A stretch of 64,000 bases of DNA from Melampsora larici-populina 98AG31 (lineage: Eukaryota > Basidiomycota > Pucciniomycetes > Pucciniales > Melampsoraceae), in the NCBI RefSeq assembly GCF_000204055.1, contig NW_006768783.1, forward strand, positions 372,001 to 436,000. The letters are read 5' to 3'. The number at the start of each line of letters is the position of its first letter. The stretch's first letter is position 1. The notes under the pieces are model-generated. The model ran no database searches. It was not told the DNA's origin and saw only the letters and a program-made list of their open reading frames with translations. Positions 14,114-60,369 of this stretch are shown piece after piece. The position numbers and the translations under genes are program-made.

Positions 14114-14121
14114 TAAAAATT
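14114..14121 (+). repeat. MULE target-site duplication, left copy
   Basis: TAAAAATT lies directly before the terminal inverted repeat and recurs identically at 17149-17156. Eight bp is within the usual range for Mutator-like elements. Confidence 0.9.
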
Positions 14122-19166: not shown

Positions 19167-22100
19167 TATACATTTTGATCCAACAGCATGGTCTTTGAAA
19201 CAAAAGAAAAGAATTGCTGCATTTGACCCAGATTCATCTGAAGACAGAATTGTCAATAAAATTCTGAACAAGGTAGACGGGGACGCTAGAAACACAATCA
19301 AAAGCCAACTAATTGCTCCCTATGAATGGGACATATTCTTGATGGTATTCAAAGATATTTTTGAAAACACAACCATTATTTCCAAGAAAAAATACTTGAA
19401 CAGACCTCGAAAACCTTTTATCAAAAACAAGTTCATCATCATAGATGATAAGTTACAAGGATTAAGTACAAAAGCTCAACCAAGTACATCTGAGAGAAAA
19501 CCACTTAGAGCATGCCCAAACTGTGGAAGTAAAGATCCAAAACATCAATGGAGAGTATGTAAAGAAAAAAGAATAAATATGATTGAGGAAGATCTATCAG
19601 AAAGTGATCATATGAATGACGAATATGATTTTCAAGGAGGACAACTTTCTGATGAATCAAAATCAGAAAGTGAGGACGAGAGAAACCAACAAGATGTCTC
19701 CGTAATTGATACTTATAATAGTAATGAGAAATATATCAACATATTACAAGCTGAAGCAGAGGTACCTCACTCCTGGCAAGATGACATGCAAATGGGTAAT
19801 ATAACTGATGCTAGATTATTGAAATCTAAACCAGCAGAAGGGATGGCACACACACTAGGCCATCATTCAATGGCTCGAGCAATAATTAATAATTGCAAAG
19901 TTCCAATACTACTTGATAGTGGAGCTTCATGCTCAATTGTAGGCAAACATTTCTTATCAGAGATTATACCAGACTGGCAAGAAAAGCTCCTACCCAGTAG
20001 TCACGTGAAATTCTCAGGAGTTGGTAGTAAACTTCACGCACTGGGCGTAATCAGCTTACAGGTAATATTCCCACATGTTAAGCAATCAATGAGACTGAAT
20101 GCTGAATTCGTAGTAATGGAAAATGCTAACAACAAATACTTCATATTGGGTGCAGAGAACTTGAATCAATATGGATTTGATATATTCCATAGTAAAGAAA
20201 GATATTTTACTATTGGTAATAATAACAAAAGTATCAAATTTGCTTTAATGCAACATAAAGAGATTTTGTCCATTAAACCGGACATTACAATAGAAAGCCC
20301 AACAAACGAAGACACCAAAGAACTTCGAGATAAAATATTGGAAGCTCAGTTTGGACCCAACCTCACCCACACTCAAAAAGAGGATATAATCAAGATGGTG
20401 ATTAAATACAAAGATCAATTTGGGTTAGGAGAGCAACCTTTAGGCATGATAAAGGATCATCCGGTAACAATAGAACTTACAATAGATAAACCTTACCCTC
20501 CAATATTACGGAAAGGTGCATATCCAGCTAGCCCAAGAAGTAGAAAAGAAATAGAGAAACACATCGAAGAACTACTTAGTATGGGTGTAATACGAAAAGT
20601 AGGCAGTGACGAAGAAGTAGATGTGACTTCACCTGTTTTAATAGCATGGCACAATGATAAGTCTAGACTTTGTGGAGACTTTAGAGCCCTCAATCAATAT
20701 ACAAAGCCTGATAGATACCCACTACCTAGGATAGATCAATCTTTGACAAATCTCTTCAGAGCGAGAATTATTACTCTAATGGATATAATGAAAGGATTTC
20801 ATCAAAATATAGTGGAAATCAATAGCAGAAAGTTCCTTAGAATTATATGTCATCTAGGGATATTTGAATATATTAGAATGCCTTTTGGAATCAAAAATGC
20901 CCCAGCTTTCTTTCAAAGAATGATGGATACAGAGTTTTCAAAAGAACTACGGGAAGGATGGCTTAAAGTTTATATTGATGACCTTATCCTTTTTCACACA
21001 ACTTGGAAAGAACATCTTGTAGCAATGGAGATGATATTGATAAGAGCTAAAGCAATGGGAATGACAATATCTCTAAAAAAGTGCCACTTCGGTTTTGAAG
21101 AATGCAAAGCCCTAGGTCATCGTGTATCAGGACTATGGGTAGCAGTAGATCAAAACTCAGTAGCTGCAGTACTACAAAAACCCTGCCCAAAAGATAAACA
21201 ATAATTGAGTTCATTTTTAGGATTTACAAGCTACTACAGAGCTCACATTCCAAACTTCGGAATGATTACTCGTAGCCTCTACAAACTTTATGCTAAAGGA
21301 GTAGTCTTTGAGATGACAAAAGAAAGAATTGATGCAGTAAATAAAATCAAACAGATACTTACAACCGCACCAATCCTGTTTCACCCTGACTTTGAGAAAC
21401 CTTTTAAACTTTACGTTGATGCATCAATTGAAGGTTTAGGAGCAGCACTCCATCAAACACAAATCATTGAGGGAAAACCAAAAGAAGGACCGATTGTTTT
21501 TATATCTAGAAACCTGACAGACACTGAAAGCAGATATTCTTCGCCGCAACTAGAAGCTTTAGCACTAGTGTGGGCATTAGAAAAATTACACTACTACTTG
21601 GATGGTAGTTACTTTGAAGTAATAACAGACTGTACCGGAGTAAGATCACTAACAAATCTCAAATCTCCAAGCAGACACATGTTAAGGTGGATGATGGCAA
21701 TACAAGAGTATAAACCATTTATGACAATTACTCATAGACCAGGAAAATTCCACAACAATGCTGATGGACTTAGTAGAATGGCATTACCAAATGATTCCAG
21801 TAATCCAGCGTGGGAACCAGAAGAAATGGAAAGAGACATTCCGGTGATGGGAATCAGTTTATGTGAATTGTCTGAAGAATTTTTTGATGAAGTAAAAGCT
21901 AGTTATGAAAAAAATAGTAACACAGCTAAACTTACCAGAATATTATCTGCACAGAATACTAATCTGAGCCTATCAAGTACACTTGAGCAACCTTGGAAAG
22001 ATGGACTAACTCAAGGAAAAATTTCACTCGAATCTGACCTACTATATTTTAGAGAAAAGCATACTGCGGTGTTGGTAATAATGACTACCGAACATATTCA

Positions 22101-23445
22101 ACAAACATTACATGTATGCCATGATGAATTTATGTCAGGACATCTGTCGGAAGACCGGACAGTAGATAGGATCAAAAGCACAGCCTGGTGGCCAAATTGG
22201 AGACAAGATGTTGAAGAATATGTAAAAACTTGTGAAAGATGTCAAAAAGCAAATAAAGCCACAGGAAAAAGATTTGGTTTACTTCAAAGAATAGAAGAAC
22301 CAACGTATGCTTGGGAAGTCATTAACATGGATTTTGTTACAGGTCTTCCACCATCATTAAATAACAATTACAACTGTGTACTGGTCATTGTAGACAGATT
22401 TTCAAAAAGGACAAGGTTCTTACCATGCTACAAAGAAGCAACAGCAATGGATATTGTGTTATTATTCTGGGAAAGAATAATAAGTGACGTAGGATTACCA
22501 CGAATAATCATCAGTGACAGAGATCCAAAGTTTACTTCTGAATTTTGGAAAAGTCTACATACACTTATTGGAACAACATTAGCTCTTTCCACTGCTTATC
22601 ATCCACAGACTGATGGTCTCAGTGAAAGAAACATTAGTACCTTAACTGAAATAATCAGAAGGTATTGCACTGAAGGACTTTGTTACACAGATAAAGATGG
22701 ACATACACATGATTGGCATACATTACTACCAGCCTTAGAATTAGCATATAATAGCAGCATACATAGCACAACGGGAAAGAAACCTTTTGAAGTAGAAAGA
22801 AGCTATTGTCCTAGATTACCAAAAGACCAGATAAAAAATAAAAATGTCGAATTTCATCTGACTTCCTTAAGTTTCTTTGATATGCTTGGTAAAGCAAGAG
22901 CTCGAGCAGCTCAATGTATTGAAGATTCTGTGACATATAATCAAGAAAGATGGAATAAGACTCATAAAGAACCTAAGTTTGTAATCGGTGAACAAGTACT
23001 ACTATCCACTACAAACTTTAACAACCTTCAAGGACCTAAGAAACTTCAAGACCAATTTGTTGGACCATTTGTAATACTAAAATTCCATGGGAGCAATGCA
23101 GTAGAAGTAGCATTGACAGAGTTTGGGAGAAAACATCCAGTATTTCCAATCTCATTAATAAAGAAGTTCCACGCTTCTGACAAGAGCAAATTTCCTGACA
23201 GAGAAATACCTAAGAAAACCCCTATCAGGTTTGAAACTGATGGAGAAAAGATTTTCTCACACATAATAAAACAAAGAGACACACAAGTTAACGGTAAATC
23301 TACTACACTTTATCTTGTAAGATACAAGAATAGGAGTGCAGATGAAGATGAATGGCTACCAGCAGATAAAGTGCCAAATAACAAAACAACCTTGCGAGAA
23401 TTCAGAGCCCAAAGAAGAGCTCATAAACCTTCTGAAAAGAAGTAA
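19167..23445 (+). pseudogene. Element 2 gag C-end and pol (protease, RT, RNase H, integrase, chromo-like domain)
   Basis: The gag end resumes after the TA element. A knuckle CPNCGSKDPKHQWRVC lies at 19513-19560, the protease DSGAS at 19914 and RT with SRLCGDFRALNQYT and catalytic YIDD at 20971. A TAA stop at 21202-21204 interrupts the frame just before SSFLGFTSYYRAH, the RT-RNase H connection. RNase H has YVDAS (about 21413). Integrase shows the HHCC region (22120-22240) and the triad D22330, D22516, E22624 (nucleotide positions), with 35 residues between the last two. The C-terminus (about 23230-23400) with LYLVRYKNRSADEDEWLP is chromodomain-like, which in chromoviruses directs integration to heterochromatin. 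Apart from the stop the frame is intact. Confidence 0.88.
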
Positions 23446-27198: not shown

Positions 27199-28473
27199 AT
27201 GGCGGACCCAAGTGAATCAACACCTCATGGCTTATATCTGACAGGCAACTTCGAAATTGAGAAGAAGGTATGTTGATATTATGAGTAATACCTGAATTGC
27301 ATTTGTAGCTAATAGTTTCTCAAATTCGAAATGCAGACCTCACCTGAGAATGGTTGGAGATCAGAGTATCAAACTTATGCGACCTACATTGGGGCTGGCG
27401 GTGCACATCGAAAAAGAACCATGAGTTACAAAATCCAAATCAAAGGTTATAGCCCAGCTCAATTCAGATTGGATGACGGGAATATTTATTTTTTAAGAGG
27501 CTCCTTCTTCCCATCCAATACTGACGAAACCAAGAACGACATCCTGTTTTTTGAGGGGTCTGAACGTATCTTAATTGGCCCTGCGGACACCATTGTAGGT
27601 GACTTGGTGAATTCTATCGCAGTCACTGGAGTTGGGATTGTGACAGCTAAAGAAACAATCCCCAAGCCTAACGTCACCAGCACATTGCCAAACCCTGCCG
27701 ACGGGGAGAAGTTGGTTACAATTGTAACCGTTCTTCATTCAGACTATCACCTGACTGTGAGTACCATTCGAGTGTCTCAGAGACTATTACTGGTCAAAAA
27801 TTTCCTCAGTTGAAGAAAGCAAGACAGTTCAAAGTCCAGTACCGTATCCCTCCGACCCCCAACTTAGCTGGCATTCAAAAGATACTCCAAGAGGGGCGTG
27901 AATACGTATTTCATGGTTTCCTCAAAGATTTTGATGAAGAAAAGTGTCTTTACATAATAATGGTGAGCTAATCTGCTCTTCCCGTCTTGAGCATTGCAAC
28001 TTACCTTTTTCACCAAATTGCAGGCAAACAAAATTTCGCCAACTACTGGAAGCAAAGAATATAATGTCGGTGTCCAATCTACAGATGCCACACAAGATAA
28101 TATGAATTCAAGATTGTCAAGCAAGAAACCTACAAAGTAAGCTTATTGTAATAGTGCTCAATAAGAACCTTACTTATGCCTTGAAAATGCGAAATCTAGG
28201 TTTGTACCGAGGGCCCTGACTAGCCAATTCATGTCACCCGTTATCTCGACGGACTCTGAATCTAGCTTGAACTTACAATTCCCGCCATCTGACTTCGGGC
28301 CTTCTTCCTTCTCCTCCGCGATGTCAAGCACAACACCTGGAACCTCTAATGGCTCCTCTGACAATGCGCTGTCTAATGAGAACCCAAACCCGCCCAGCAA
28401 AAAGAAAGGTCGAGCTCAGCCAAAGCGTGTTACAAAGAAGAGTAAAACAATGGACTTTACTATCGAGGAGTAA
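27199..28473 (+). CDS. Helitron-associated accessory protein, copy A, five exons (342 aa)
   Basis: Exons 27199-27267, 27337-27756, 27810-27962, 28024-28136 and 28200-28473 join in one frame through GT-AG introns of 53-69 bp and end at TAA. Residues ~1-215 look beta-rich, with GDLVNSIAVTGVGIVTAK and YRIPPTPNLAG. The C-terminal ~90 residues are Ser/Pro-rich and end in a basic patch (KKKGRAQPKRVTKKSK) that could be a nuclear signal. The gene at 53155-54457 upstream of Helitron copy B is clearly related: GFGIVGAKAEIP and YRMRPTPNLKK occupy the same places and the tail is also basic. I do not recognise the family. A single-strand DNA-binding role is only a guess from its place beside Rep/helicase. 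Confidence 0.65.
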
Positions 28474-29849: not shown

Positions 29850-32800
29850 GGTATCGCGCGCGAAAAGGTCGAGCGATCCGATCAGAAGCTCCAGGTGCGG
29901 AAGTCAACCTATTAACACGTTTTGCGAACGAAATCCCACACGACATTGGTGAGCAAGCGGACAAATGCTTGGGATGTGGAGCATTAAGGTGGAGAATTGA
30001 GAGACGAATCAGGGATCTAAATTTGGAAAGCTCAACGTACGGGAATTGCTGCCAACATGGAGCAGTCGAACTTCCACTGCGATATTTTGTTCAAGATGTA
30101 GGCCAGGACATTCCACCATTTTACCTAGCTTTGTTGACAGAACAAAATGAAGGTAAGCTGTGGCACAAATCACATTTAATCGTATTTTCTACTAATGTTC
30201 TTTGCAGTCTCGAAACAATTTTGTTTACAGATCCAAAAATATAACAACGCTATGTCATTCACTTCCTTGGGAGCCACAATTGATACCTCGGTTATGGGGC
30301 AACGCGGAGTCTACATATTTAGAATTTCCGGACAACTGTCTCATAATATCGGGTCCCTCATGCCTATGCCTGGAGATCACCCCGGATTTGCACAGATTTT
30401 CGTGTATGGAGGTGGCGGTCCAGAGGAAGCACACGCAAGGAATGCCTACTTTAATAACGAGCTGAATCCACTGATCTTCCACATCTTTCAGGAATTCATG
30501 GACTTACACAATCTGTATGTTGAGGTGTTTCGAAACGCAAGGGCTATTTGCAACGAGGGCAATACACGGTCTTTGAGGATCAACACGATAACGGCACCTG
30601 GCACGGATCATAGACGATATAACCGTCCAACAGCGAATGAAGTGGCGGGGATAATTGAGGGGAATGGACAGGTTGGGGCTCGAGAAAGAGATATAGTACT
30701 AGAAAGACAAACGGGTGCTCGTCAACGAATATCAGAACTGCACACTGCCTATTTTGCATTGAGATATCCTTTGTTGTTTCCCTATGGCTCCCAAACCCGG
30801 CATGAAAATTTTTCAAATCCGACGGAAGAGAGTGCGTAATGTTTAATAATTATATATGACTCTAATATCAAATTGAGGAAGTGATACTATTGATTATTCT
30901 ACAGGACCAGGTGGTGAAGTAACAAGCCTGGAGTGGTTTGCTTATTTGCTTTTTCAACGCCCCGCTTTTTCTATTATACTCGCCGCAGGTCGCCTGTTTC
31001 AAGAATTTGCAGTCGACATGTACGTCTGTGTCGAGCACTGTCGACTGCAATACCTGAGATTCCACCAAAGAGAACTACGGGCCGAATTATACAGCGGAAT
31101 TGTTGAGGCTTTGGACAATGAAATGGAAGATGAGGTGGTGGGCCGACGAGTTGTGTTACCTTCAAGCTTCATTGGGAGTCCTAGGCATATGCAACAACTC
31201 TATCAAGATGCGATGAGTTTGGTTGCCGAATTCGGACATCCTAGCCTATTCCTAACAATGACGGCCAACCCTCAATGGCCTGAGATCACCAACGCACTTC
31301 AACATGGTCAGTCAGCGGAAGACCGCCCAGACTTAGTGGCTCGAGTTTTTCATGCGAAATTCCACTGTTTACTCAAAGACGTTACCAAACAAGAACGCTT
31401 AGGGAAATGCTCAGCTTACGTTTACAGCGTGGAATTTCATCGTCCCAATTTGGTCACTGCACTCGAAAGCTCAAGAAAGTATCAATCGATGCTCAAAGCA
31501 ATGACGAATGAACAGCTGGCAGTTATTGCACCGATTCGCGAGGCTTTAACGGAGAATAGGCCTTATTTAGCTTTTTTGGACGGTCCCGGAGGAACCGGAA
31601 AAACTTTTGTATTAAATTGCATATTACACTACTGCAATTCATATAATTTCTCTTTCGAAGCCGTCTCAGCCGCTGGCATAGCATCTCTCTTACTCTTACA
31701 TGGGCGGACAGCGCACAGTGCGTTTAAAATACCGATCCCGGTGCACGACGACTCAATTTGTTCTATGGGTTTTTGCGATGGAGATCAAATTACTTCAGTG
31801 CGATTCATCGTTTGGGATGAAGTAGCGATGCAACACAAACATGCGATTGAATGTGTTGATCGAACGATCCGCGAGCTGACGGGAGTTGACCTGCCTTTTG
31901 GAGGAAAGGTAATTCTGTTTGCAGGTGATTTCAGGCAGACCTTGCCAATTGTGAGGCGCTCAAATTTAATGCAACAAGCACAAGCGTCGTTGAAATCATC
32001 TTATCTGTGGAGCTCAGTACATCGGTTCTCTTTGACTATCAACATTCGGCTAGGAGGACTATCACCCAATCCTAACAGGGATAATCTGGATTTCGCCAAA
32101 TGGTTATTAGATTTAGGCTCTGGAAGACTTCAACAGGAGCACGCGGCCATATTCCCTTTGAGTTACTGCAATGTCACGGTGGTACAACCACCGAATTTTT
32201 GTGATTGACAACTTTTGGAGACAGAATATGGTGGGGTTCAAGGATTGATTCTAAGAGAGAAATGGGGTGATCTTACGGACTTCTACTCAAGCCGTTGTAT
32301 GATCACTCCTCTCAATGCAACTTTGAATTTGATGAACCGTGATATAATGGAATCATTGCCAGGTCAAGTCTTCATGTCGAACTCTATTGATCTCATGGAC
32401 GAACAATTCATGGATCCGGTAACGGCCGATGTCCTGAACACATTTGACTTTCCCGGATTCCCAGCTCATAAGATGAAATTGAAAGTCGGGGCGTCGATCA
32501 TGGTATTGAGAAATTTGAACTTGGCAAATGGGCTTTGTAACGGGACACGACTCTTAATCACAGATTATCGCCCGAATGCCTTACAGTGCCGAATTTTAAC
32601 TGGAGACTTGAAAGGAAAGAGAATAAATTTACCTAAAATCAATTTGCATCACGAAGGTAATGAGGACCGCCCAATTCCATTCTGGCGCTACCAATTCCCA
32701 GTTATGCCAGTGTTTTGCATTACAATCAACAAAAGTCAGGGCCAAAGCCTAGACCAAGTAACTGTACTACTCCCAAAGCCGGTTTTTTCTCACAGGCAAC

Positions 32801-32916
32801 TTTATGTAGCTTTATCACGATGCACTAATGCATCCAATGTCAATGTTTGTATAACATCGCTCTGTGACAAAATATCTACAACTAATATAGTATATCATCC
32901 GATTTTGAATATCTAA
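29850..32916 (+). pseudogene. Helitron copy A Rep/helicase, nuclease core deleted
   Basis: Exons about 29850-30152, 30208-30831 and 30905-32916 join by GT-AG introns. The first exon carries a zinc-binding start (CLGCGALRW ... NCCQHG). Exon 2 and early exon 3 match the Helitron N-terminal domain (YNNAMSFTSLGA, FRISGQLSH, HPSLFLTMTANPQWP). At about 31440 the sequence jumps from YSVEFHRPN to the helicase linker. The HUH motif, the catalytic tyrosines and roughly 1.4 kb present in copy B are missing. The Pif1-like helicase follows: Walker A GPGGTGKTF, VWDEVAMQ, GDFRQTLP, INKSQGQSL and YVALSRCT. A TGA at 32206-32208 interrupts it in frame. It cannot act as a rolling-circle initiator. Confidence 0.88.
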
Positions 32917-34329: not shown

Positions 34330-34844
34330 ATGAAATTGAACAAAATCAACAAATTGTCCAAAACCTCCACTGTTCCCGCTGAACAAATTTATGTTTCAAC
34401 CAACCGAAGTTACGATCAAGCGAGGCTCGCTTTGATCTACCTGAAACACTTTGTAAGCCCTTCGGTAACTGAAGTAGATCCATGTCTTAATCAGGCAAAG
34501 GTACGGTGTTCAAACATTTGCTTTTGTTTTTCCTCATACACCCAGCTAATAGATTGGCACCTAATATCATAGGGCATCACATTTGTGCTTCCAATTAGCG
34601 GGTTATCTATTCTCAGCTACAAATTTTTCCTTATGATACGTTCCGCTAACGAACTGGTGGGCAGTAAGTATATCTCACTTTGTTCCCTTCAAATAGTGTG
34701 CAATGTATCCCCCACTACCGAGATTAAAGCCCATTCTACGTACTACTGACTCTCTCTGTAAGCCTGCAAATCATTCAAGTTACAGGGGAATCTGTAAAAA
34801 ATCCACAAATCGACCACTTGCTAGCTGAAGAAATGAGGTTTTGA
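34330..34844 (+). CDS. Small three-exon candidate gene (106 aa), unknown
   Basis: Exons 34330-34500, 34573-34663 and 34786-34844 join in frame with GT-AG introns of 72 and 122 bp and end in TGA. Exon 1 encodes a Lys/Asn start and YVSTNRSYDQARLALIYLKH. Exon 2 has a hydrophobic stretch (FVLPISGLSILSYKFFLM) that could be a membrane segment or a core helix. The C-terminus is acidic. I recognise no family. It could instead be the remains of a larger gene, since the Copia LTR starts 130 bp downstream. Confidence 0.4.
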
Positions 34845-34975
34845 ACAGCCAAAGTTGTGGCCTGGCGGTAATTGCATCCGATTTGCTTATGGCTTTCCAC
34901 AATTTCTTATTAGATGGTCAAATCCCTCCAACTTTACTCACTCCAAAACGATCAGAATCACAAATAAGTCAAATT

Positions 34976-35364
34976 TGTTGATACAACACTTGTATCTCAG
35001 ATCGTACTCGACACTTAGTGACCATAAGCATTCAGACATCCATGCTGAGCTTCACTCTGAAGACTCTGAGCGTGTTCCTCATTTCCTTTCTACGAACACT
35101 ACTTGTTCCTCTCACTCATCTAATGTTCAGTCTGATCCATTTGTATATATTCCAAATGTCTGTTGTTGTTGTTTCTGTTTTTCGTGTGCTTTTTCGTCTT
35201 GTCATAAATATAGAAATATTTCTTTGCATTCATTCTCTGCTTGCACGAGAAGCGCTGTCGACAGCTCTCTCTTGAATCTCTTCGTTTGTCACGCAACGCA
35301 TCCTTTGCTTTTCGTGCCGAAACTTCTGAAGATTTCACAAGCTACTCCATAGCCTGTATCGTTA
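34976..35364 (+). repeat. Copia 5' LTR
   Basis: It begins TGTTGATACAACACTTGTAT and ends TGTATCGTTA. The end lacks the usual CA, but both LTR ends and both flanks agree on this boundary. No clear TATA box is visible; tatatattcc at about 35145 is the nearest candidate. Confidence 0.95.
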
Positions 35365-35382
35365 GGTTATGAGCCCAGCGCT
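35365..35382 (+). other. Copia primer binding site for a half initiator tRNA-Met
   Basis: GGTTATGAGCCCAGCGCT directly follows the LTR. It is complementary to the anticodon stem and loop of initiator tRNA-Met (conserved GGGCTCATAACC), not to a tRNA 3' end. Drosophila copia is known to use a 5' half of this tRNA as primer; the same mechanism is inferred here. Confidence 0.75.
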
Positions 35383-35478
35383 CCAAGACGCGCACTAAAT
35401 ACATACCATAAACCCTTTGTCCATCAAAGGCACTGCTAATCACTATCGACTACAATCACCAACTAAAAATCCACCCTG

Positions 35479-40488: not shown

Positions 40489-40871
40489 TACAACACTTGT
40501 ATCTCAGATCGTACTCGACACTTAGTGACCATAAGCATTCAGACATCCATGCTGAGCTTCACTCTGAAGACTCTGAGCGTGTTCCTCATTTCCTTTCTAC
40601 GAACACTACTTGTTCCTCTCACTCATCTAATGTTCAGTCTGATCCATTTGTATATATTCCAAATGTCTGTTGTTGTTGTTTCTGTTTTTCGTGTGCTTTT
40701 TCGTCTTGTCATAAATATAGAAATATTTCTTTGCATTCATTCTCTGCTTGCACGAGAAGCGCTGTCGACAGCTCTCTCTTGAATCTCTTCGTTTGTCACG
40801 CAACGCATCCTTTGCTTTTCGTGCCGAAACTTCTGAAGATTTCACAAGCTACTCCATAGCCTGTATCGTTA
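40483..40871 (+). repeat. Copia 3' LTR
   Basis: Same length (389 bp) and, as far as read, the same sequence as the 5' LTR; bordered by the purine tract and by AAATT. Confidence 0.95.
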
Positions 40872-48678: not shown

Positions 48679-49656
48679 TTAATCAATAACAACAACTTTT
48701 CGTCTTTTTGAACTTCTGGTGGTAACTCCTTCCTTTAATTCCTTCAATTTCTCTATTTCCTCCATCTTTCTTTCCCATAAAGCAAAACATTGTTTGAGGA
48801 AACCGTCATTTGTCCACCCAGCAGCATTTCTTCCAGCCATTGAAAGCCAAATTTTATGCTGATCTTTCCATAGAGAAGGGTTTGGAAAAGGTGAAGGAGA
48901 ATCAGAAGAAAAAGAAATAGAAACCCAATGACCATTTGCGACAAAACCAAGAGCTATAGGCTTATTAGTGGAATTCTTTTTGGAAGAAAATGGGAAAGTC
49001 ATACAGTGATGATGAGTGGTACTCATGATCACAACAGGCCTTGAACAAGCATTTGCTGCAATTGGACCCATAGTGGTTGATTCAAACCAGTTATATTTGC
49101 TGACAGGTTCATCTGTATAAGTTTCAATTTTTTCTGATATGTCTTGAATGTATCTTTCAGTTGCCAGTTCTTGTTTTTCTTGAATTTGAGCCTTGGTGAG
49201 TGACTTTTTAGCTTTCGTAGAACCACTCTTCTGCCAATAAAACTTAAGATATTCTTTATGGTGTATGTCTAGATCTTCAACCATCTTTTGTCTAATAGAT
49301 TTCTGAGCACCTTTTTCGTGTTGACCAAGAGCATGAGCTATAGCGTGAAATCCACAATGTCCATCCCCAGGAGGATCATAAATAGAAGTAACATAAGGTC
49401 TAACAAGTTCTAATAATTGATTGTGATACTCTTCAATCTTGTGAGGATCTTGATAATGATTTAAATGATAAAACTCTTGATCATTATCATAATCAGCTTT
49501 AATAATTTCTTCATTATAAGTTAAAGCTTTCATCATTTCTGCTTCTTCTTGTTCTGATTTTAAATCATCAATAATATAAAGGCACGAGGCCTCACAACCA
49601 AGCTTCGTTACATGTGCCATGCCAGACAGACCCTCAGTGCTAGGCCTCACAACCAA
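48679..49656 (-). CDS. OTU-family cysteine protease-like protein (up to 325 aa)
   Basis: The protein has an OTU-type active site: PPGDGHCGFHAIAHALG with D98, C101 as the nucleophile, and NGHWVSI with H243 as the likely catalytic histidine. OTU proteases remove ubiquitin-like modifiers, and OTU domains are also often carried by fungal and plant DNA transposons. The C-terminus is basic (RSSKRRKVVVID), like a nuclear signal. The first ~24 residues are encoded in a 55-bp direct duplication, so the true start is uncertain; it may lie at a later Met or in a lost exon. Just downstream (left) lie the tandem array and hairpin array, and upstream (right) is Helitron copy B, so it is probably transposon cargo rather than a host gene. 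Confidence 0.75.
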   Translation of the reverse strand: MVVRPSTEGLSGMAHVTKLGCEASCLYIIDDLKSEQEEAEMMKALTYNEEIIKADYDNDQEFYHLNHYQDPHKIEEYHNQLLELVRPYVTSIYDPPGDGHCGFHAIAHALGQHEKGAQKSIRQKMVEDLDIHHKEYLKFYWQKSGSTKAKKSLTKAQIQEKQELATERYIQDISEKIETYTDEPVSKYNWFESTTMGPIAANACSRPVVIMSTTHHHCMTFPFSSKKNSTNKPIALGFVANGHWVSISFSSDSPSPFPNPSLWKDQHKIWLSMAGRNAAGWTNDGFLKQCFALWERKMEEIEKLKELKEGVTTRSSKRRKVVVID

Positions 49657-49696
49657 GCTTTGTTACATGTGCCATGCCAGACAGAACCTCAGTGCT
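49587..49696. repeat. 55-bp direct tandem duplication
   Basis: 49587-49641 and 49642-49696 differ at two positions. Each starts AGGCCTCACAACCAAGCTT and ends CCTCAGTGCT. It overlaps the N-terminal coding part of the OTU gene. Confidence 0.95.
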
Positions 49697-51925
49697 ACAC
49701 CCCTCGATATTACTTATACAGCGGCAGTATCAAATCCATATGCTCCAACTGAGTCCATCAACAATACCCATTCTGTACCACCCTGATCCATACAACGAAG
49801 TGATAGACCTCCATGTCGCTCCACGCGGCACTTTCATTCATTCACATCCCCTGTAAACACCACAACAGTTGTCATCCTCAACCTCGGATTCCGTACCACC
49901 CCATTAACCAAACGCAATCACAACTACACCAACCGAATACTCATAATCGTCTCTCCCGCCATGCCATCAACACCCAGGAATCCTCATTCAATTCGATTTT
50001 CACCCCACCTTGGAACCAACACCGCGCTCGCCCGTTAACATCACCGGACTGGACGATCTACCTATGATACCTTTCGTCATTCTATTTCGCCGCGTCCAGC
50101 CGCGAGGTGAGGCTTCTCCGTCAGTGTCAAACCCAACCAAGCACCCTGCGTGTTTTTACAATGCTCAGCCTATGAAACTGATCCTATTCGCAAACCACCA
50201 TCCTGTGATCCTTTTATACGACAGGACAAATTTCCAAGCGGACTGATCCTATAGCAACTCTCGACATCGCAGCAACTGGCTTCAGGCAAGACTCATATCC
50301 ATCTCAATTTCCATCCCAAATTCAAATTGAATACTGTCATCGTGATCCTTTTTCAAATGGAACTACACTCCCATACTCGCTTCCCATTACGTTTCAGCAG
50401 CGTTTTTTGGACTAGGTCGGAGGTATGCAACCTCAAAACTCAATACATACCCTTCATGATCTGACCAATGTCTTCAGTTCAATATCCTACATTTCCCGAA
50501 GAAAAGCGAGCTGAGCCACTTCAAAAGTGATGTTCTTACCCAAACCGATACTCTCTCAGCAGTAGAAATTCTTATAGCCACTCAGACCCTCAATTCTGAA
50601 ATTAAACCAAATCAAGCCTATAAAATAGAAGGACCCATCGGCGCCTCATACCGTAATATACCTGTCTTGACCGAAGAACCCGCCTTTACTATTGGTTTGG
50701 ATCACGCGGAAGTGCGCCTCAACTGTATGGCGAACAAAGTCTTGGTACAAGGTGTAGGGTTAATTCAGGAGTGGTTCATCCAACACACATCCAACCCTAC
50801 TTCCTCAACTGAAGTCATCAGAGTTCTGCATCGGGGCCGAGATAACGTTGTGAGTTACTCTTTACTCCTGACTAGAAATAATGCTAACCATTTTTGGTCA
50901 GACAAAAAAAAATGTAGATCTTCAAGCTTGCTACAGCATCGATCCATACATTTCGACACAGCTGAGCATCAACTCGCTCTCCGTCGGTAATCTAATCAGC
51001 TTGCGAGGAAATGTTGTTGGGTACCAATCTGAAAACAACGTATGGGAGATCAATGTGAGCAACAAGGCCAGTCCACCAGTAAAACCCGGTCTGACCAATT
51101 GATTCTTAGACTTCTGAAATCCAGCTTATAAGTTCCAAAATTCAACAGAGGCGCAGTCAACGCCAACGTGGTCTCGCCCCCCTTTAACGTGAGCATAGAT
51201 CGATCCCAGGCGGCTTTGATACACGTTCGTCGGCACACTCCAATTCAAAAGGACACACTTTGGGTGAAGGCTTTTGTAATTGGACCATGTTGGTTTCATG
51301 CATAAGCTGGATGCCTAGGATGAAGGTGTATTTGTTCTATCATCCCAGGAAGAGAGATCATTTGTAGTCACATGTTTCATACGCTCAGATAATCTAGATT
51401 GAAACTAACCTCACAATGGGAATGTCGTACAAGTGCGTCAATTGTCATAGTCCGTGAAAGTGTATAATGCTGAGTGTTAAATGTACTGTCATTGATGCGC
51501 TCAGGCTACCAGTCCCATACCATCTGTCTTTGTCTTGCAGCGTCATAATGTAGGCAGCGAGCTTTGTTGCACAAAGACTTCAGCCCATAACGTTCCGAAA
51601 CCCGATGCCTGTCCAATACATTCTTGAACATTTCCCACGTCGAGAAAAAACTAAGCATATGCTGTTTATACTACCGGCGCAGACCCGAGATGATACTCAA
51701 TGGGCCTCGGATCCCCGGGGCACACGGAGGTCTTTCGTAGCTCTGATATTATCCAACCCACGCTCTGGAAAGCTGTGCTACGGCCTTCTCCACGTTCCAA
51801 GTCGATTCTAGACTCGATCACCATTGTGGACCAGATCCAGGTCATTATCGAGGCGTTTCCAATGCTTCGGACCACCTGGGCGACTTCGGCCCATAGATCT
51901 CGGGCCCTGGACCAGCCAGACGTAA
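49697..51925 (+). pseudogene. Upstream gene region of Helitron copy B, possibly an OB-fold protein
   Basis: Exon-like frames are scattered here. The clearest are 50667-50849 (PAFTIGLDHAEVRLNCMANK ... EVIRVLHRGRDN) and 50881-51101 (YSIDPYISTQLSINSL, VGNLISLRGNVVGYQSE). The second looks like an OB-fold strand pattern seen in RPA-like single-strand DNA-binding proteins, which some Helitrons carry; this is a pattern impression only. I could not join the exons into one frame. From 51110 to 51925 only short, unrecognised frames occur. Confidence 0.35.
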
Positions 51926-52799
51926 TCACAGGGGGAAAAATAAAAGCTCACATAGATGTGAGCAGAGGGTACCTTCCTGATAACTCCAAAAATGTTTCAA
52001 TTTCCTTCAGATTCTTTCAATTCACCATTTTGGTGGTGCCAAAGTGCTCAGCCTGTAATACTTAGGTATTGCTTGAGTTTGCTAAAGCATGCTCATCTTC
52101 ATCTTGGATGAGCCTCTCTTGAGCATGGATCATCCATTGGATGAGTGCTCAGGACCCAGCTGACACATCACTGTATACTCAGAATCACCTTCAGAAGGAT
52201 CCAAAGGATGTCACTGAGTATTAGCTGAGGGGCTGCTCAGCTCAGCGCAGCTGCTCAGCTAGTCCTCAGTGGTATTCCTGGGATCAGGAGGATCCAAATG
52301 ATGTCACTGAGTATTGGCTGAGGGGCTGCTCAGCTATTCCTCAGTGGCATTCCTGGGATCAGAAGTATCCAAAGGATGTCACTGAGTATTGGCTGAGGGG
52401 CTGCACAGTTCAACTCAGCTGCTCACCTAGTCCTCAGTGCCATTCCTGGGATCAGAATTATACAAAGGGATGGTTCCCTTTGTGTTTTTCACATTTGATT
52501 GGGTCTCTCACCGCTCAATCACATTTGGTCACTTGACTGTGCAGGCTGAGCATTGGAGGGCCCAAGATGACCTGAGAAGATGATCTAGCCCTCCCTCAGG
52601 CTTCTTGGTTGAGGGATAAAGCCTGAGGAATGCCTAACTCATCGGCTCAGGACATGCTGACTATTTGATCAGATGATGAGCTGAAAGAAAACTGGAGGAA
52701 AATCGTAAGAAATTTGGAAACAAGCTGGAAACAATCTTGGAGAAACCTCCAAACTTTCTCTGCTCACATCTATGTGAGCTTCTGTTTTTCCCCCTGTGA
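51926..52799. mobile_element. MITE-like element with inverted ends (874 bp)
   Basis: The left end TCACAGGGGGAAAAA is mirrored by TTTTTCCCCCTGTGA at the right end. Just inside, both ends carry the near-palindrome GCTCACATAGATGTGAGC or its complement, followed by AGAG. The inside holds three 75-93-bp tandem units and no coding frame. CAGGG...CCCTG ends are seen in hAT elements, but I cannot find a convincing 8-bp target duplication, so the superfamily is open. Confidence 0.75.
52201..52461. repeat. Three tandem units (93, 75, 93 bp) inside the MITE
   Basis: Units start with (A/C)CAAA(G/T)GATGTCACTGAG at 52201, 52294 and 52369. Each contains GGCTGAGGGGCTGC and CTCAGTG.CATTCCTGGGATC. They are rich in short self-complementary GCTCAGC motifs. 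The middle unit lacks about 18 bp. Confidence 0.9.
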
Positions 52800-53154
52800 A
52801 TGATCACTTCTACGACTACGCCATACAATGCACTTGATGCCAGCCACGTTGCCTCGATATTGAGACGGGATAGCGGTATGCCGGTCGAACTTTGTCACAA
52901 GCGACGACCAACGCTTGCCACGCTTGGCCAAGCAGCAACAGCACAGGTCTATGGAATTCACGCTCAAACACTATATAACCACGTACGTAGCTTCGACATG
53001 ACAAGTCTCCATCACATCTTTCCAATCTCTATACTCACCACAAACTGTAGTTTTTTAGCGGACGGATTCAAAAACTTCTACACTCCTCTTCTTCGTATTG
53101 CCCATTTGTCACACAATAGCATAAAAATTGAACCTCAAGAGGCACTGCAGGACG
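52800..53154 (+). pseudogene. Partial exons before the Helitron B accessory gene
   Basis: A plus frame (52800-52980) ends at a GTACGT donor, with a possible acceptor at about 53047-53051 followed by FADGFKNFYTPLLRIAHL. The second part matches NFVTPLLHLV at the same place in copy A. The product is unknown and the 5' part is cut by the MITE. Confidence 0.35.
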
Positions 53155-54457
53155 ATGTCAACCGGTTCTAACGCTCCTGTGAAAAAGTCACATCCTTTCA
53201 ATATTTCGGGCGTGGTCGAAGTATCAGAGATAGTGAGTCTGTTGCCTGTCGGAGGGCTTCCACGGGCTAACCATTGTCTCCAGCTCGCTCCATTAAACGG
53301 TCAGAAATTTACGTACCGGAACGCCACGGTCTCAATAACTTGCAACGGGCTCAACAACGACAATGAGCGAGAATATGACGGTATCCTCACCGGCTACTCG
53401 ACCGCCGAGCACGAGGTTTTAGATGAACACTGCTATTCGATCAAGGGTAGGATGCTGCCATCGTCTGAGACCGCCGACTTCCAAATCTATTTCGACCCAG
53501 TGCACAAGATTGACGTCGGGGACAGCAATACCTTTGCTGGGACACTGCACGACAATACCGCAGCGAGCGGCTTCGGTATCGTTGGTGCTAAGGCTGAGAT
53601 ACCAGATGTGGAGTCGGACTCTGTGGTGTTGGTGTTCGTCATGAAGCACACCGATTATCTCCCTGAAGTACGTAGATTGTAATCATCCTCCTTTCTGAGG
53701 GGTACCCGACTGACATCAAAACAGAACAAATCCACAGTCGAATTTGAGGTCGAATACCGGATGAGACCGACCCCGAACTTAAAAAAAACCCAGGGTTTGG
53801 TTCAAGAGGGTAAAGAGACTTTGGTCCACGGGTACATTGTGGATTGGAGCGAAGAGCATCATCGTTGGATTGTTGACGTCAGGTTGTCTTTCTAATTCTC
53901 CGCATCAAGTCCGTTCTGATACCGTCACTTTCTCTGGATTGAGTGAGCAGGTTACTGGCCTTAATGTTGGGAGCGGCCATCAAGTTGTGTCGAAAAAGAA
54001 AGTCGGCACCGGCAGCCAAGTCACGGCGACGGGACGTGTTAAGCCAGCCAAGTAAGTTCCCGTTAATCAACTTTACTTCATCTGCTAACATGGACCGCCT
54101 AGACATAATTCCAGTCCGATAAAGCTAGTTCCAGCAACCCCTAAGAAACGGGCTGCTCCCGCCACCAAAGCCAAAGCTCGGGCGGCCAACCAAGCAAAGG
54201 CGAAGCCGGATATTGATCAAGGCGAGGAAGCTGAACTCGAGCAGGAAGAGCTCCCTTTGCCACAGCCGAAGAAACGTGCTGCAGCCGTCAATAAGGGTAA
54301 GGCACGCGCTGCACCGCAGGTTGAGCTGGACGACGAGGTCGGCGAGGATTTTTTTGATGACGATCTCGGCGACGACATCAAACCTCCGCAACAGGGTTCG
54401 AGTACTGGACTGGGTATCAAGGCTGGGAGGCAACCGAAGCGGGCACGGGCCTCTTGA
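53155..54457 (+). pseudogene. Helitron-associated accessory protein, copy B, with one frame break
   Basis: Exon 53155-53667 encodes 171 residues and ends at a GTACGT donor. Exon 2 starts at 53725 (STVEFEVEYRMRPTPNL). Near 53884 the frame must shift by one base (mutation or unrecognised short intron) to continue to the donor at 54052. The last exon 54103-54457 encodes an Ala/Lys-rich tail with PKKRAAPATKAKAR and an acidic patch. The order, the exon-2 motif and the phase-2 last intron match the copy A gene (27199-28473), which has one more N-terminal intron. Function unknown; the basic tail suggests nuclear or nucleic-acid binding. Confidence 0.65.
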
Positions 54458-54930
54458 TTCCTGATCATTGATACGTCATGTTGTGTCTTCTGCAATGCCC
54501 GGTGCTGTCCTTTGATGAGGGCGGTTACATTTATGTATATAGTTGTATCTTTTGAACCGCAATGAAACGGGCCCGAATATTGACTTGCTTTCTGATCAAG
54601 ACGGTTGAATCGGCAACGCCATGAGCCCGGGCTGGCCCTTTGCACTGCTTTGTTCATCTCATGTCTCTCGCCCAGATCACTCATCGCAACCGCCGAGCCA
54701 ATCAAAATCGATGAACCCGGCCTAAAAAAAACCAGCCTGGGTCAAGGAGATGCAAGAGAATGATTAAAAGTCGTTTGAAGTATAAGAATGAGTATATGGT
54801 GTCTCATAACTGTAGGAAGGACCGCAACTAATCATTGCTTTTTGACAAAACGATTTATCGAAACCCATCCAAGACTCAGCCGAAACCGCTAGCCGAACTT
54901 CAGCTCACTCTAACATCATCCGACTCTGTA
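54458..54930. other. Spacer before Helitron B Rep/helicase
   Basis: About 470 bp without a supported gene. It should contain the 3' end of the accessory gene and the promoter of the Rep gene. No clear motif was identified. Confidence 0.4.
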
Positions 54931-57900
54931 ATGGCCTCGATATATCCCACAGCCCCAAACGGTCCGGCAGTCAGCAATACGGCCCAATTGTCAGAGCAGA
55001 GTCTAATCAAACGGTTTCCTGGTGAAATGCCGTTGCATTTGGGACCGTGTAATGATGCTTGCATGGACTGTGGCGCCTTACACTGGAAGAGCGAAAGGAC
55101 CCAGGATGACTGGAAGTCAGACCGGGCGACGTTCTCAGCCTGCTGCCAAAAATGGGCGGTGGCGTTGCCAAGCGATGGTTTGGAAAACACATTGACCCCA
55201 GCTTTTGTTCAAGCACTCTTTACTGGTGATGACCCAGGTGAGCATCTTGGTTAATGGACGAGGTCTCACACTGATCCCTTGGTTCTCATAAAGATGCGAA
55301 ACACTTCCGGAAACACATCAGAGCGTACAATAACTCTCTCTCTTTCACTTCGAACGGGGTCGACACGGACAAGTCCGTCATGGGGAATGGTGGGGCATGG
55401 ACTTACCGCATTTTCGGACAATTGAGCCATTGCATTGGTGCGCTGCTTCCTCCGGATGGGCAGCCCAAGAAATTTGCACAGATATTTATGAATGGTGATC
55501 AAGCAGATTGCGAAGCCGCTGATCGATCACGAGCAGCGGGGGGTGGTCTTCGCCCTCAAATATTAAAGCAGTTCCAAAGATTCCTGTACTCGACTAACCC
55601 TTTCGCCAAGATGTATAAATCGGCTGAACAGATCATGAATGGTGTTGAAGTCAAGACGATAAAAATCAAGTCGTTGGCAATCAGCGGACGAGACAAAAAT
55701 CGTTACAACTATCCGACGTGCAATCAGGTTGCAGCTGTAGTCCAAGGGGATGGGAATGTTGGGGATAAGGACCGTGATGTCATCTTGCATAGGAAGAGTG
55801 GCCTCCTTAAACGGATCTCCGAATTGAACACTACGTACTTTGCACTACGTTATCCAATCTTCTTCATGCATGGTTCCCATGGATGGGATGAGCACTTTCG
55901 AAACCCGGCATCACGTCGTAAGTGCTGCGTTTCACTGCCGGACGCTGCTTCCGTAGGTTGACATCCTTTTTGGTCAGGTCCGAACGGCAAAGTGAGCAGG
56001 TCTGAACATTGCGCGTACCAACTGTTCAACCGCCTTAACAGGTTTTCAGCTGTTCTGCGTGGGGGCCGCCTGCTGCAGGAATATGCAGTGGACATGTATA
56101 TATGTGTCGAAAACGCAAGACTCAAATATTTTCGCCTGAATCAACCAAGACTCCGGGCTGAGATTTACAACGGTGCAGCCGAGGCACTCCACAACGATGA
56201 CTTTTCAATCGGTCGAAGCGTTATCCTGCCGTCTTCCTTTGTAGGGGGCCCGAGGGCGATGCATGAGCTATATCATGATGCTATGGCTCTGGTGAAAAGA
56301 TTTGGCCATCCAAGTCTGTTCATCACGATGACGGCTAACCCAAAATGGCCCGAGATGACGGAAGCCTTACTACCTGGCCAATTACCGGAAGATCGGCCAG
56401 ACCTGTTGTCGCGTATTTTCTATTTGAAGTTGCAAGAAATGCATAAGGACGTTCGAAAACGAGGAAGGCTTGGGAACTGTCTATCCGACGTCCATACCGT
56501 GGAGTTTCAAAAACGAGGAGCCCCTCACGCACACACAATCTTGATCAACGACCCAATTACAACTCCAAGGACGCCGGAGGAGGTCGATCTGATCGTCTCG
56601 GCAGTAATACCAGACCCTGACCAAGATCCGATTCTTTACGATCTGGTAGTTCAATCGATGGTACATGGACCATGCGATAGCACGAACGCATGTTGGAACG
56701 GTAGCAAGTGCAAGTATGGTTATCCGCAGCCGTTCAGTCCCGTCACGGCCATGACAGAATGATCGTATCCACAGTATAAACGCCCGGACGACGGTCGTTC
56801 ATTCGTCAAAAATGGTCACACTTATACTAACCGGGACATAGTGCCGTATAACCGATTTCTGTTGCTTAAATACAGATGCCATATTAATGTTGAGATCGCG
56901 ACAAGTATGAAGTCAGTGAAGTACCTTTATAAGTACATTGCAAAGGGACACGATAGGCAGGCTCTAGCCTTGGAGAGAGAGGACGAACCAACAGAATACG
57001 TCGACGGCCGTTACTTAGCAGCTCCAGAAGGTATGTTGGTTTTGTCGAGACATATTGCAATCGATGCTGATATCGCTTTGTAGCCGTCTTTCGTCTTTTG
57101 CAGATGTCTATGTCTGGCAATCATCCCGCGGTTAATCGATTATCCTTGCATGATGAATACACCAACATGGTTTACTTCCGGAGCACGGCAGCTCTTCAAT
57201 CCGCTATGAACTCAGGCAGTGCAGAAAGGACCACGCTGACCAAATACTTTTGGATGTGTAGCCGGAATCAATTGGTCACCGGAACCGATTTCACTGTCCG
57301 AAGTCTGCTCTACACCGAAATGACTGATTTCTTTTGGTGGGACAAATCCGTAAAAGAATGGGCACGGCGCCAAAGAGACATTCAGTCTATAAGCGGACTC
57401 TATTTCGCCAAGCCAGGTCATGGTGATCGATATTTTCTACGACTGTTGCTCACATCAGTGCGAGGACCAACTTCGTTTCAGAACCTGAGGACTGTCGATG
57501 GCGTCATCCACTCGAATTACAGGCAGGCGGCAGACGCTAGAGGGCTTCTAATGTCCGACGCTCACTACGATGCCTGCCTTACGGAGGCGGCAGTTTGGCA
57601 ATCTGGCCACCAATTGAGGGAGATGTTCGCATTGATTCTTGCGCACAGTCCGCCATCTAATCCACAACTTTTGTGGGACGATCACGCGGATGACCTTATG
57701 GACGACTGTCATTACAAGCTGGCTCTGCGCGCTCCGCTCTTAGAGCCATCCGAAGCTCAGGTAGAGAACTATGCCCTATATCTTTTGGCGCAGTCCTTGG
57801 AATACATGGGCAAGAGTCTGGACGATGTGGGCTTGAACCCCGTAGATGAAGCTTTATTATTGGAGGTCCTGGGCGATTGCGGAGGCACCGATGATGGTGA

Positions 57901-59366
57901 AGTCAGCGCTGAAGCTAGCAACGAGTACGTCATCAGTGCAGGCGTGACAATGACGGATGAACAAGGATTGGTGTTCGATGCGGTAGTAGAAAGCCTAGAA
58001 TCCGACCAAGGCAAATTGATGTTTGTGGAAGGCCCAGGAGGATGCGGCAAGACTTACTTATTAAACGCATGTTTGCACTACGCGAACTCGAGGTCAATGC
58101 CATTCTTAGCAGTGGCCTCCTCGGGTGTGGCAGCGTTGTTGCTGCTGAAAGGTTTGACTGCTCACTCAGCAATGGGGATACCTCTGGATATTGGCCCGGA
58201 TTCTACGTACCTGTACATTCAGTCGCAATGATGCGATCGGGAAAGCTTTACTCGGGGCACGGTTCATGGTCTGGGACGAAATTGCAATGCAACACCGGCA
58301 TGCGATCGAATGCGTTGACAGAAGCCTGCGCGATCTCAGGCAATCGGACGAGGCATTCGGTGGGATGGTGGTATTGTTTTCAGGCGATTTCAGGCAGACG
58401 TTGCCTGTGGTCGTGCATGGAGGTCTTATGGATACTGTCAGGGCGTGTTTCAAGCACTCCCCGTTGTGGGACGAGGTAGAAGAGTTTGAGCTTACGAAAA
58501 ACATACGGTTAGGCGATGATCCAGACAACTTGGCCTATGGGCGATGGTTGTTAGCTCTGGGGTCCGGCAAACTGCAGACTTCCGACGTCGAGAAGGTCAA
58601 GCTAGAACATGTCAGAGTGATCAGCATAAAGCCAGGTCAGCCATTGAGCCGGAAATGGATTACTCCATTCTTTGACAGTGTGCCATCATTGGTCAGGCGC
58701 CGTGCGTGGCCTCAACTGGCTCAATATTATTATTGCCGAGCAGTAATCACTACACTGAATGTCACGGTCGCCGAACTGAATGGAATGGTATTGCGAAGTC
58801 TGCCAACCGAACAGCAAGACTATTCGTCAATCAACTCTCTAGATGAGGAATATGCCTCACACGTCAGTACAGAGGTGTTAAACGGTTTCAATCCTCCAGG
58901 ATTCCCCAGCCATGACCTCAGCCTCAAGGTAGGGGCGGTCTTAATTCTCCTTCGTAATCTAAATTTACATTCCGGACTCTGCAACGGTACGAGGTTATTA
59001 GTGACGGAGGCTTCGGACAATGCACTCCAATGTTTGATTGTTTCTGGACCGAAACGAGGCGATTGTGTTTGTCTGCCGAGGATGAAGATGCACCACGGTG
59101 GGAACACGTCGATCCCCATATTGTTCTTTCGTTTTCAATTTCCGGTGGCTTTGGCGTTTGCTATGACAATAAACAAATCGCAAGGCCAAACGTTGAGCCA
59201 GGTTTGTGTGGTGCTGCCCACTCCGGTTTTTGCACATGGCCAACTATATGTAGCCATGTCCCGGTGCACCTCACGGAAGGCGACGACCGTCATTCTGACA
59301 GAAGTGTTGCCAGAAAATTCAACGACGAATGTGGTATGTTGTGAATTGGTGAGGAGTGGCGGCTGA
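54931..59366 (+). pseudogene. Helitron copy B Rep/helicase with HUH and Pif1-like domains, broken
   Basis: Exons 54931-55237, 55294-55917 and 55978-57030 join with GT-AG introns at the same two places and phases as copy A. The zinc start is ACMDCGALHW ... ACCQKW. The Helitron N domain includes HPSLFITMTANPKWPEM. The HUH motif is GAPHAHTILI and the tyrosine motif YLYKYIAKGHDR. A TGA at 56760-56762 lies between them, and the join near 57030-57104 is not in frame. The helicase has Walker A GPGGCGKTY, then a shift near 58205 moves to the second frame with VWDEIAMQ, GDFRQTLP, INKSQGQTL and YVAMSRCTS. Intact relatives nick and unwind DNA for rolling-circle transposition; this copy cannot make a full protein. 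Confidence 0.9.
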
Positions 59367-59810
59367 GGCCATGAGCACGCACCGGTTAGCAGATGGATTG
59401 GATGGTAATCTTTTTCGCAAATTGAGCTCTATGTAAATAATGTAATATAGTGTTATGTAGTCAGAGATGGCTCGGAAGATTGATACCCTACACTTCCTAC
59501 TGCAATGGTATGGTATTGCAGATTGAATAGTGCAGTGAAGGTTCTTTGCAATGGTATGAACTATATGTGCGTGCGTTGTGTTACAGGTTTAATGCAGGAT
59601 GTCGGGAGATCCTATTCAACAAGAGCTAAGAGGTGATGTAGTACAACGTGAGAGCAGTAGTTGGGCGGCGTGAGGTCAGAACAGGGTCACAGTCAAAACC
59701 CACTCTTTGTATCATAAGAGGGAGCGGGTTTGGGTGAGGAAGTAACGGGGCAGAATGATACTTGATCACTGTGCGATGCGCATCAATGTCAGTTTCGAGT
59801 GGCTTTGAGG
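59367..59810. other. Spacer after Helitron copy B
   Basis: No gene recognised. The Helitron B 3' terminus should lie here, but I see no clear hairpin followed by CTRR. Confidence 0.4.
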
Positions 59811-60074
59811 CTAGGTAGTGTCACTGACGGATGCGTGGATGTTGGAACAGAAGGAACCAGGGTGGTCCTCATCGAGTAGAACTATGTGAAGGTGGGGAGG
59901 ACCTCGCCTCTGGAATTCTATGACGGTGTAGAATTTCTCCGGGTGGTATTGAAGCGCGCTTAAAATTGTCATATTGACAATGCGGTGGAAGTGGTGATAT
60001 TGTGAGCGTGCGACCTGTTCGAAATGCGAGGCGTTGTAGGTCACAGATGGACAAACGGCGTGTTTGATGACCAC
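59811..60074 (-). pseudogene. Fragment of a third Helitron Rep gene, inverted
   Basis: The minus frame contains ALQYHPEKFYTVIEFQRRG followed by PPHLHIVLLDED, the HUH nuclease motif region (His-hydrophobic-His), as in copy B EFQKRGAPHAH. The flanking domains are missing. Its opposite orientation shows that it is not part of copy B. Confidence 0.65.
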
Positions 60075-60369
60075 CTGGGAAACAAAAAAAACCAGCTCAG
60101 GATCGTAAGTCCTATAATTACATTGGAGGAAGGACTGACCGGCCGCGGTTCGTGAACTGTGATGGAGGTATTGGCTTCCGGAAGTTGGGGGGTGTTGTGT
60201 GAGGAGGACATTGTATGTTGCAAGGGAACAGCTGAAAGGTGTGTGCTCCGGGTTTTATAATGTCTTGAGAGATGGCTGACTACGGGGATGGTGCAGCTTG
60301 CGGGGGGCGCCACTGCGAGGCACAGGGTAGGCTGGGCAATAGCTGTGTTGGATGCCGGTGGCGGGCAGG
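60075..60369. other. Short spacer before the right-hand LTR
   Basis: A Pro/Ser-rich minus frame continues upstream of the Helitron fragment (60313-60041), perhaps its decayed flank. Nothing else is recognised. Confidence 0.35.

Follow-up and report, generated by a model that had tools for sequence, protein, structure and literature searches.

The 64,000-nucleotide stretch of DNA analysed here, referred to as the window, comes from Melampsora larici-populina 98AG31 (assembly GCF_000204055.1, contig NW_006768783.1, positions 372,001 to 436,000, forward strand) and contains two diverged Helitrons, copies A and B, which both carry a related spliced gene upstream of their Rep/helicase gene. We focus on this accessory gene, above all on that of copy A, and argue that it belongs to the regular gene set of a Helitron lineage in Melampsora and probably encodes a protein resembling the single-stranded DNA-binding proteins (SSBs) of bacteria. 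The features that concern the two elements are, in window coordinates:

27199..28473, plus strand: copy A accessory gene, A-type, 342 amino acids, five exons (exon join), MELLADRAFT_86565
30210..32913, plus strand: remains of the copy A Rep/helicase, from comparison with copy B (compared from 30210 on; the gene start lies before)
49566..60369, plus strand: copy B as a mobile unit, delimited against a second copy (the C34 copy)
50357..51187, plus strand: second accessory gene of copy B, C-type, 222 amino acids, four exons (predicted exon model; genome-wide family; profile match to the A/B family)
51927..52798, no strand: insert of 872 bp, ends inverted (CACAGGGGGAAAAA...), present in Helitron B of the window but not in the C34 copy (pairwise comparison)
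53155..54456, plus strand: copy B accessory gene, B-type, 373 amino acids, four exons (exon join), MELLADRAFT_86567
55275..59366, plus strand: copy B Rep/helicase with Helitron_like_N and PIF1 domains (domain search and comparison; covered from 55275 on, first exon upstream)
27810..27962 (copy A), 53725-53877 (copy B) and 50902-51054 (C-type), plus strand: 153-nt exon between two phase-0 introns (exon joins)

Joined together, the exons of the copy A gene (27199-27267, 27337-27756, 27810-27962, 28024-28136 and 28200-28473) give an uninterrupted frame of 342 codons and a stop, and the introns between them (69, 53, 61 and 63 nt) are all of the GT-AG kind; the unbroken join of five exons claimed in a preliminary description of this DNA is thus borne out. 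MELLADRAFT_86565 (Melampsora larici-populina, 349 amino acids, 98% identity) is the database entry of the same gene. Its model, which likewise keeps the frame, begins exon 2 with seven additional residues, which occur in none of the 12 other database proteins that cover that place (P0002-5, P0007-14). All splice structures given here are predicted from the sequence. The motifs GxGIV.AK..IP and Y[RM].{2}PTPNL, which the same description had pointed out, can be recognised by eye in the proteins of both copies. The basic, disordered tail it had proposed stands in part: the last ~25 residues of the copy A protein are basic and the tail is disordered in the fold model, but residues 232-342 are mixed in charge (14 K/R, 10 D/E). 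Judged by eye, the C-terminal end is MDFTIEE in copy A and basic in copy B. Bacterial SSBs carry a disordered tail with an acidic tip.

Within the Rep/helicase remains of copy A, the interval that corresponds to 56514-57901 of copy B has shrunk to 9 nt (31444-31452). This deletion of ~1.4 kb begins just ahead of the HUH histidines and removes the last part of the Rep domain together with the HUH motif; the Helitron_like_N match stops at profile position 180 of 191, and an in-frame TGA lies at 32206-32208. The loss of the nuclease core, as described earlier, is therefore confirmed. Matches to the Pfam models Helitron_like_N and PIF1 have E values of 1.6e-53 and 3.6e-53 in copy A, and of 4e-52, 2.4e-23 and 3.4e-29 in copy B. 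The copy B gene is broken too, by a TGA at 56760-56762 and by a shift of frame near 58206-58210, next to open accessory frames. Survival of the copy A frame beside a dead replication gene had been proposed to reflect recent decay, mobilisation in trans or selection on the accessory protein. Neither of the last two is required as an explanation: given the two lesions (the 1.4-kb deletion and one stop, in the stretches compared) in ~4.4 kb of Rep/helicase, a neighbour of 1.03 kb would remain untouched with a chance of ~60%, by simple arithmetic that assumes an even spread, and copy B shows the same combination, so that the intact frame needs no special cause. Mobilisation of copy A in trans is possible all the same, since many other Rep matches have no stop across the segment searched.

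The C-type gene at 50357-51187 is a further related gene within copy B that the preliminary description had overlooked. Profile comparison matches its core to the A/B-type family with a probability of 95 and an E value of 3.9e-8. The B-type gene has its own database entry, MELLADRAFT_86567 (385 amino acids, 92% identity). The exon flanked by phase-0 introns occupies the corresponding place in all three genes and has exactly the same length. Across the genome, the central intron has its GT and AG in register in all 32 entries that could be tested (29 distinct loci) with the B query and in 26 of 30 with the A query, where the four misses are copy B and the C34 copy, each entered twice and exact under the B query. 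Copies with core identities of 41-79% to copy A or B still have this intron. For the next intron, 10/14 entries (A query) and 16/23 entries (B query) are exact; three of the four misses under the A query are copy A itself, which falls off register through extrapolation and has GT-AG at that place in its exon join. A chance open reading frame (ORF) is ruled out by the central intron in register, together with an excess of synonymous (pS) over non-synonymous (pN) differences per site in all 424 element pairs.

The tie between accessory gene and Helitron extends through the 98.3-Mb assembly. Genome searches, in which the best candidates were scored and match counts are lower bounds, returned at least 149 matches for the A-type protein and at least 134 for the B-type protein, clustered to 121 loci, as well as at least 145 for Rep and at least 106 for the helicase, merged to 153 clusters. 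At 87 of the 121 A/B-type loci a Rep/helicase follows within 10 kb downstream, on the same strand, against at most ~1 locus expected under random placement. Among the other loci, the Rep/helicase is upstream on the same strand at five, on the opposite strand at one and farther away at 20, and eight are on contigs without one. Counted by Rep/helicase cluster (153 in all), 84 are preceded by an A/B-type gene at a distance of up to 10 kb; when both families and both sides are considered, the number rises to 91, and 23 clusters have more than one accessory gene. C-type genes were found at 45 loci, 20 with a same-strand Rep/helicase within 10 kb (the C-type gene being downstream of it in 11 and upstream in nine) and one with a Rep/helicase on the opposite strand.

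Eleven tandem A/B-type pairs within 7 kb have their genes 2.7-5.1 kb apart (contigs C5, C7, C12, C16, C28, C32, C54, C133 and C141); in many of them one gene is a diverged A-like form with ~32-39% identity to copy A, possibly a further subtype. Near copy A, the matches listed in the A-type, B-type and C-type genome searches include no second accessory gene. A retroelement (19111-23445) is situated ~3.7 kb upstream of the copy A accessory gene, where some related elements have their second one.

The accessory genes have also diverged together with Rep. Among 42 elements (41 linked loci were chosen by hand, of which 40, all except L058, were fetched and joined by copies A and B), distances of the accessory cores correlate with those of the Rep segments at a Spearman coefficient of 0.78, or 0.72 in the 19 A-type and 0.53 in the 23 B-type elements; none of 1000 permutations reached the observed value in any of the three sets. 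L032, which is the C34 copy, and L036 are likewise linked but lie outside this set. pN is smaller than pS in 171/171 A-type and 253/253 B-type element pairs. The median pN/pS of the accessory gene is 0.44 (A-type) and 0.37 (B-type), compared with 0.19 and 0.26 for Rep, all of these ratios being too high because silent sites are saturated; the accessory protein is under weaker constraint than Rep. In a larger set derived from tblastn, pN is below pS for 1155 of 1157 pairs with the A query and for 1374 of 1376 with the B query, and the exceptions, L032/L035 and L036/L059, are two loci each entered twice, without differences.

Substitutions were counted on tblastn pieces by the Nei-Gojobori method, which favours alignable codons, and loci with 100 or fewer mapped codons were excluded. 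Pairs with 70-87% protein identity have a ratio of non-synonymous to synonymous substitution rates (dN/dS) of 0.06-0.16 at dS ~1-1.5. Copy B and the C34 copy give 0.24 (8 silent, 7 replacement changes), and other younger pairs 0.29-0.38, reaching 0.77 (L013/L015) and 0.68 (L021/L026); the four cross-type pairs listed (22-33% identity) give 0.51-0.71, near saturation and unreliably aligned. A dN/dS near 1, which the preliminary description had named as speaking against its proposal, is therefore not what the old and well-aligned pairs of the family display, even if two young pairs come to ~0.7. This holds for the family and not for copy A by itself, whose relatives show saturation of silent sites (pS of 0.72 or more in the 12 comparisons listed). 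On the whole, the family is under purifying selection, in the usual picture of transposon genes that are kept while the elements move and relax after insertion.

Copy B shows the accessory genes within the limits of a single mobile unit. It matches the C34 copy at 97.5-97.8% identity across long pieces, beginning at 49566 and ending at 60369, with unrelated outer flanks, and these limits enclose the C-type gene, the B-type gene and the Rep/helicase. The C34 copy is longer by ~0.39 kb near 58017. The insert at 51927-52798 looks like a young DNA transposon or an insertion of the miniature inverted-repeat transposable element (MITE) kind. Canonical Helitrons begin with TC, end with CTRR preceded by a hairpin, and insert at an A/T target. 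The 5' limit in both of the copies compared reads CA|TCAATAAT; at the 3' limit no CTRR was seen by eye in these two copies, for which truncation is possible. Adjoining the 5' limit is:

48682-49662, minus strand: OTU-like cysteine protease ORF (Pfam OTU, E 3.2e-5)

The first ~30 codons of this ORF fall inside the 5' end of copy B, and the element appears to lie within or directly beside the gene. The limits given are those of copy B; for copy A, no close copy was found in the genome comparison. Taken together, the same order and strand at 87/121 loci, the co-divergence with Rep and the position inside the copy B limits bear out the proposal of a Helitron-linked accessory gene, and the opposite expectation, that its homologues never lie near Helitron genes, does not hold.

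What the encoded protein resembles is less apparent from its sequence. Pfam yields no family for the accessory protein. A/B-type proteins have no Pfam match to SSB or RPA (replication protein A) at E values up to 1, and C-type proteins none to the SSB/RPA models at E up to 0.1; a PHROGs search at E up to 1 gave no SSB model, and searches of PDB sequences reached best E values of 1.1, 0.29 and 0.062, none of them for an SSB. Weak Pfam matches were isolated, such as one to Ustilago_mating (3.2e-4) in one of 23 members. By sequence (Pfam, PHROGs, PDB), RPA or another named family was rejected. Three database searches (14, 12 and 10 matches) retrieved 32 proteins of M. larici-populina, two of M. 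americana and two on short contigs; relatives outside Melampsora were not established in this search, which needs shared 5-residue words and is thus no proof of absence.

The earlier view that the protein belongs to no described family accordingly holds for its sequence and is incomplete for its fold. The A-type protein, modelled on P0001 (the 349-residue database model and not the 342-residue join), is predicted to consist of two tandem oligonucleotide/oligosaccharide-binding (OB) folds of the bacterial or organellar SSB type, followed by a disordered tail. Of the seven best fold matches, six are SSBs or PriB, as are most of the other matches listed. An OB-fold core is also predicted for the C-type protein, with a weaker model than for the A-type. 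The C-type fold was computed without P0034, P0035 and P0036 and alignment A3 without P0013, P0016 and P0018; the C-type alignment A4 comprises 13 of 18 fetched loci (without L071, L073, L074, L076 and L079).

With a probability of roughly three in four, we consider the accessory gene to encode a Helitron-borne SSB-like protein that would coat the single-stranded DNA (ssDNA) of transposition, in a role comparable to that of RPA in plant Helitrons. In rolling-circle transposition, Rep nicks the donor strand, which the Pif1-type helicase peels off; the accessory protein would then coat and protect the displaced strand or an ssDNA circle, and would assist the helicase or the hand-over to the target. 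A coat made by the element could dispense with host RPA at the ssDNA step, and the rapid change of the protein and the variability of its tail would be in keeping with contacts to partners that are specific to the element or belong to the host. Where two paralogues occur in one element, they might form a mixed complex or serve separate steps. What we infer here is the binding of ssDNA, the transposition step and the joint work of two paralogues.

Several observations weigh against such a role. No accessory gene was found within 10 kb of 62 of the 153 Rep/helicase clusters, so that it may be dispensable for some elements. In turn, no Rep/helicase was found within 10 kb of 28 of the 121 A/B-type and 24 of the 45 C-type loci, counts that are upper bounds because match counts are lower bounds and contigs end. 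An SSB or RPA family match is without support from Pfam and PHROGs. The fold matches share 9-14% identity at root-mean-square deviations of 4.6-5.1 (VIA) or 6.7-7.2 (Foldseek; template modelling score by target 0.49-0.58), and the two OB folds may therefore pack differently. Finally, one of the seven best fold matches is a trypanosome RNA-editing protein (4dni). This last match, the many ligands that OB folds serve, the variable tail and a core that changes faster than Rep would also fit a Helitron protein with another task, such as binding Helitron RNA, recruiting Rep to the element ends or countering host silencing. We regard this as unlikely, given the SSBs and PriB that dominate the fold matches, the suitability of an ssDNA role to a rolling-circle element and the precedent of Helitrons that carry RPA (PMC4683698, PMC4067079).

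The loci lacking a nearby Rep/helicase, as well as the intact accessory frames of copies A and B beside broken Rep/helicases, could instead indicate that the genes form a family of the host that has a separate function and was captured by Helitrons or hitch-hikes in them, with copy A kept by the host. Order, strand and spacing conserved at 87/121 loci, a divergence that tracks Rep and more than 100 copies make this highly improbable, the more so as the unlinked counts are upper bounds. Least probable of all is that the gene is a neutral passenger, derived from a captured fragment and decaying along with its element: the two young pairs with dN/dS of 0.77 and 0.68 would agree with it, but the low ratios of the 70-87% identity pairs refute it for the family, and the central intron persists in copies with cores of only 41-79% identity. 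If the accessory gene does encode an SSB-like coat protein, rusts might represent a further independent acquisition of an ssDNA-binding protein by Helitrons, of the SSB and not the RPA kind. This acquisition would have expanded into two related families, A/B-type and C-type, which are found together in single elements and may cooperate as a pair, and it would spare the ssDNA intermediate any reliance on host RPA. We put this wider proposal forward tentatively, at a little short of even odds.

Other elements in the window were identified by eye:

2213-10349, minus strand: retroelement, gag/pol-like frames
14106-16423, plus strand: transposase-like frames
19111-23445, plus strand: retroelement, gag/pol-like frames
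34837-40859, plus strand: Copia-like element, one open frame of 1673 amino acids

The frames at 14106-16423 look Mutator-like (MULE-like), with a CCHC-type end. The Copia-like element shares a long reading-frame stretch between its two flanking repeats and looks like a very young insertion; its 1673-residue frame holds a long run of KEL-type repeats.

Helitrons are thought to use an ssDNA intermediate, whose protection is not settled. If a fungal lineage conserves an SSB-like gene, in some cases with a second paralogue, this would mean a further convergence on the same need with a different type of protein, and it offers a testable function for dozens of uncharacterised rust gene models. An ssDNA intermediate has been proposed for rolling-circle transposition, and an RPA70-like protein is encoded by Helitron-like elements of mites (PMC4067079). 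RPA-like proteins are encoded by plant Helitrons (PHRPA) and also by animal Helitrons and Helentrons (PMC4683698, PMC4067079, PMC6431247), and Roffler et al. argued that ssDNA-binding proteins were acquired independently at least three times (PMC4683698). The available parts of surveys of Fusarium and Pleurotus Helitrons do not report RPA (PMC5148889, PMC4289320), and a survey of rust transposons does not mention it at the two main-text places that deal with Helitrons (PMC12210899). No description of an SSB-like gene in a fungal Helitron was found in the titles and abstracts searched, with Repbase and most subscription papers outside the search; the gene is new as far as this search reaches, RPA-carrying Helitrons being already known.

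Among known systems, an additional ORF of FoHeli3 in Fusarium oxysporum is similar in being located upstream of the transposase gene, in occurring only in Helitrons and in having no known domain; it has the opposite orientation, whereas the Melampsora gene is on the same strand, and the two are likened by description and not by sequence (PMC5148889). The best structural match, over 182-190 residues, is to the SSBs of Deinococcus and Thermus (1se8, 3udg, 2cwa, 2fxq, 2ihf), which have two OB folds per chain, but identity is 9-13% with no SSB family match, and the Melampsora gene is spliced, eukaryotic, located in a transposon and different in the make-up of its tail. Helitron RPA (PHRPA), according to the sources above, shares with the Melampsora gene its nature as an extra gene beside Rep/helicase, the tandem OB folds (predicted in Melampsora) and the proposed binding of transposition ssDNA. 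The Melampsora proteins differ from it in lacking an RPA family match, in an A-type fold closest to bacterial SSB, in comprising two related families that sometimes share one element, and in their fungal host.
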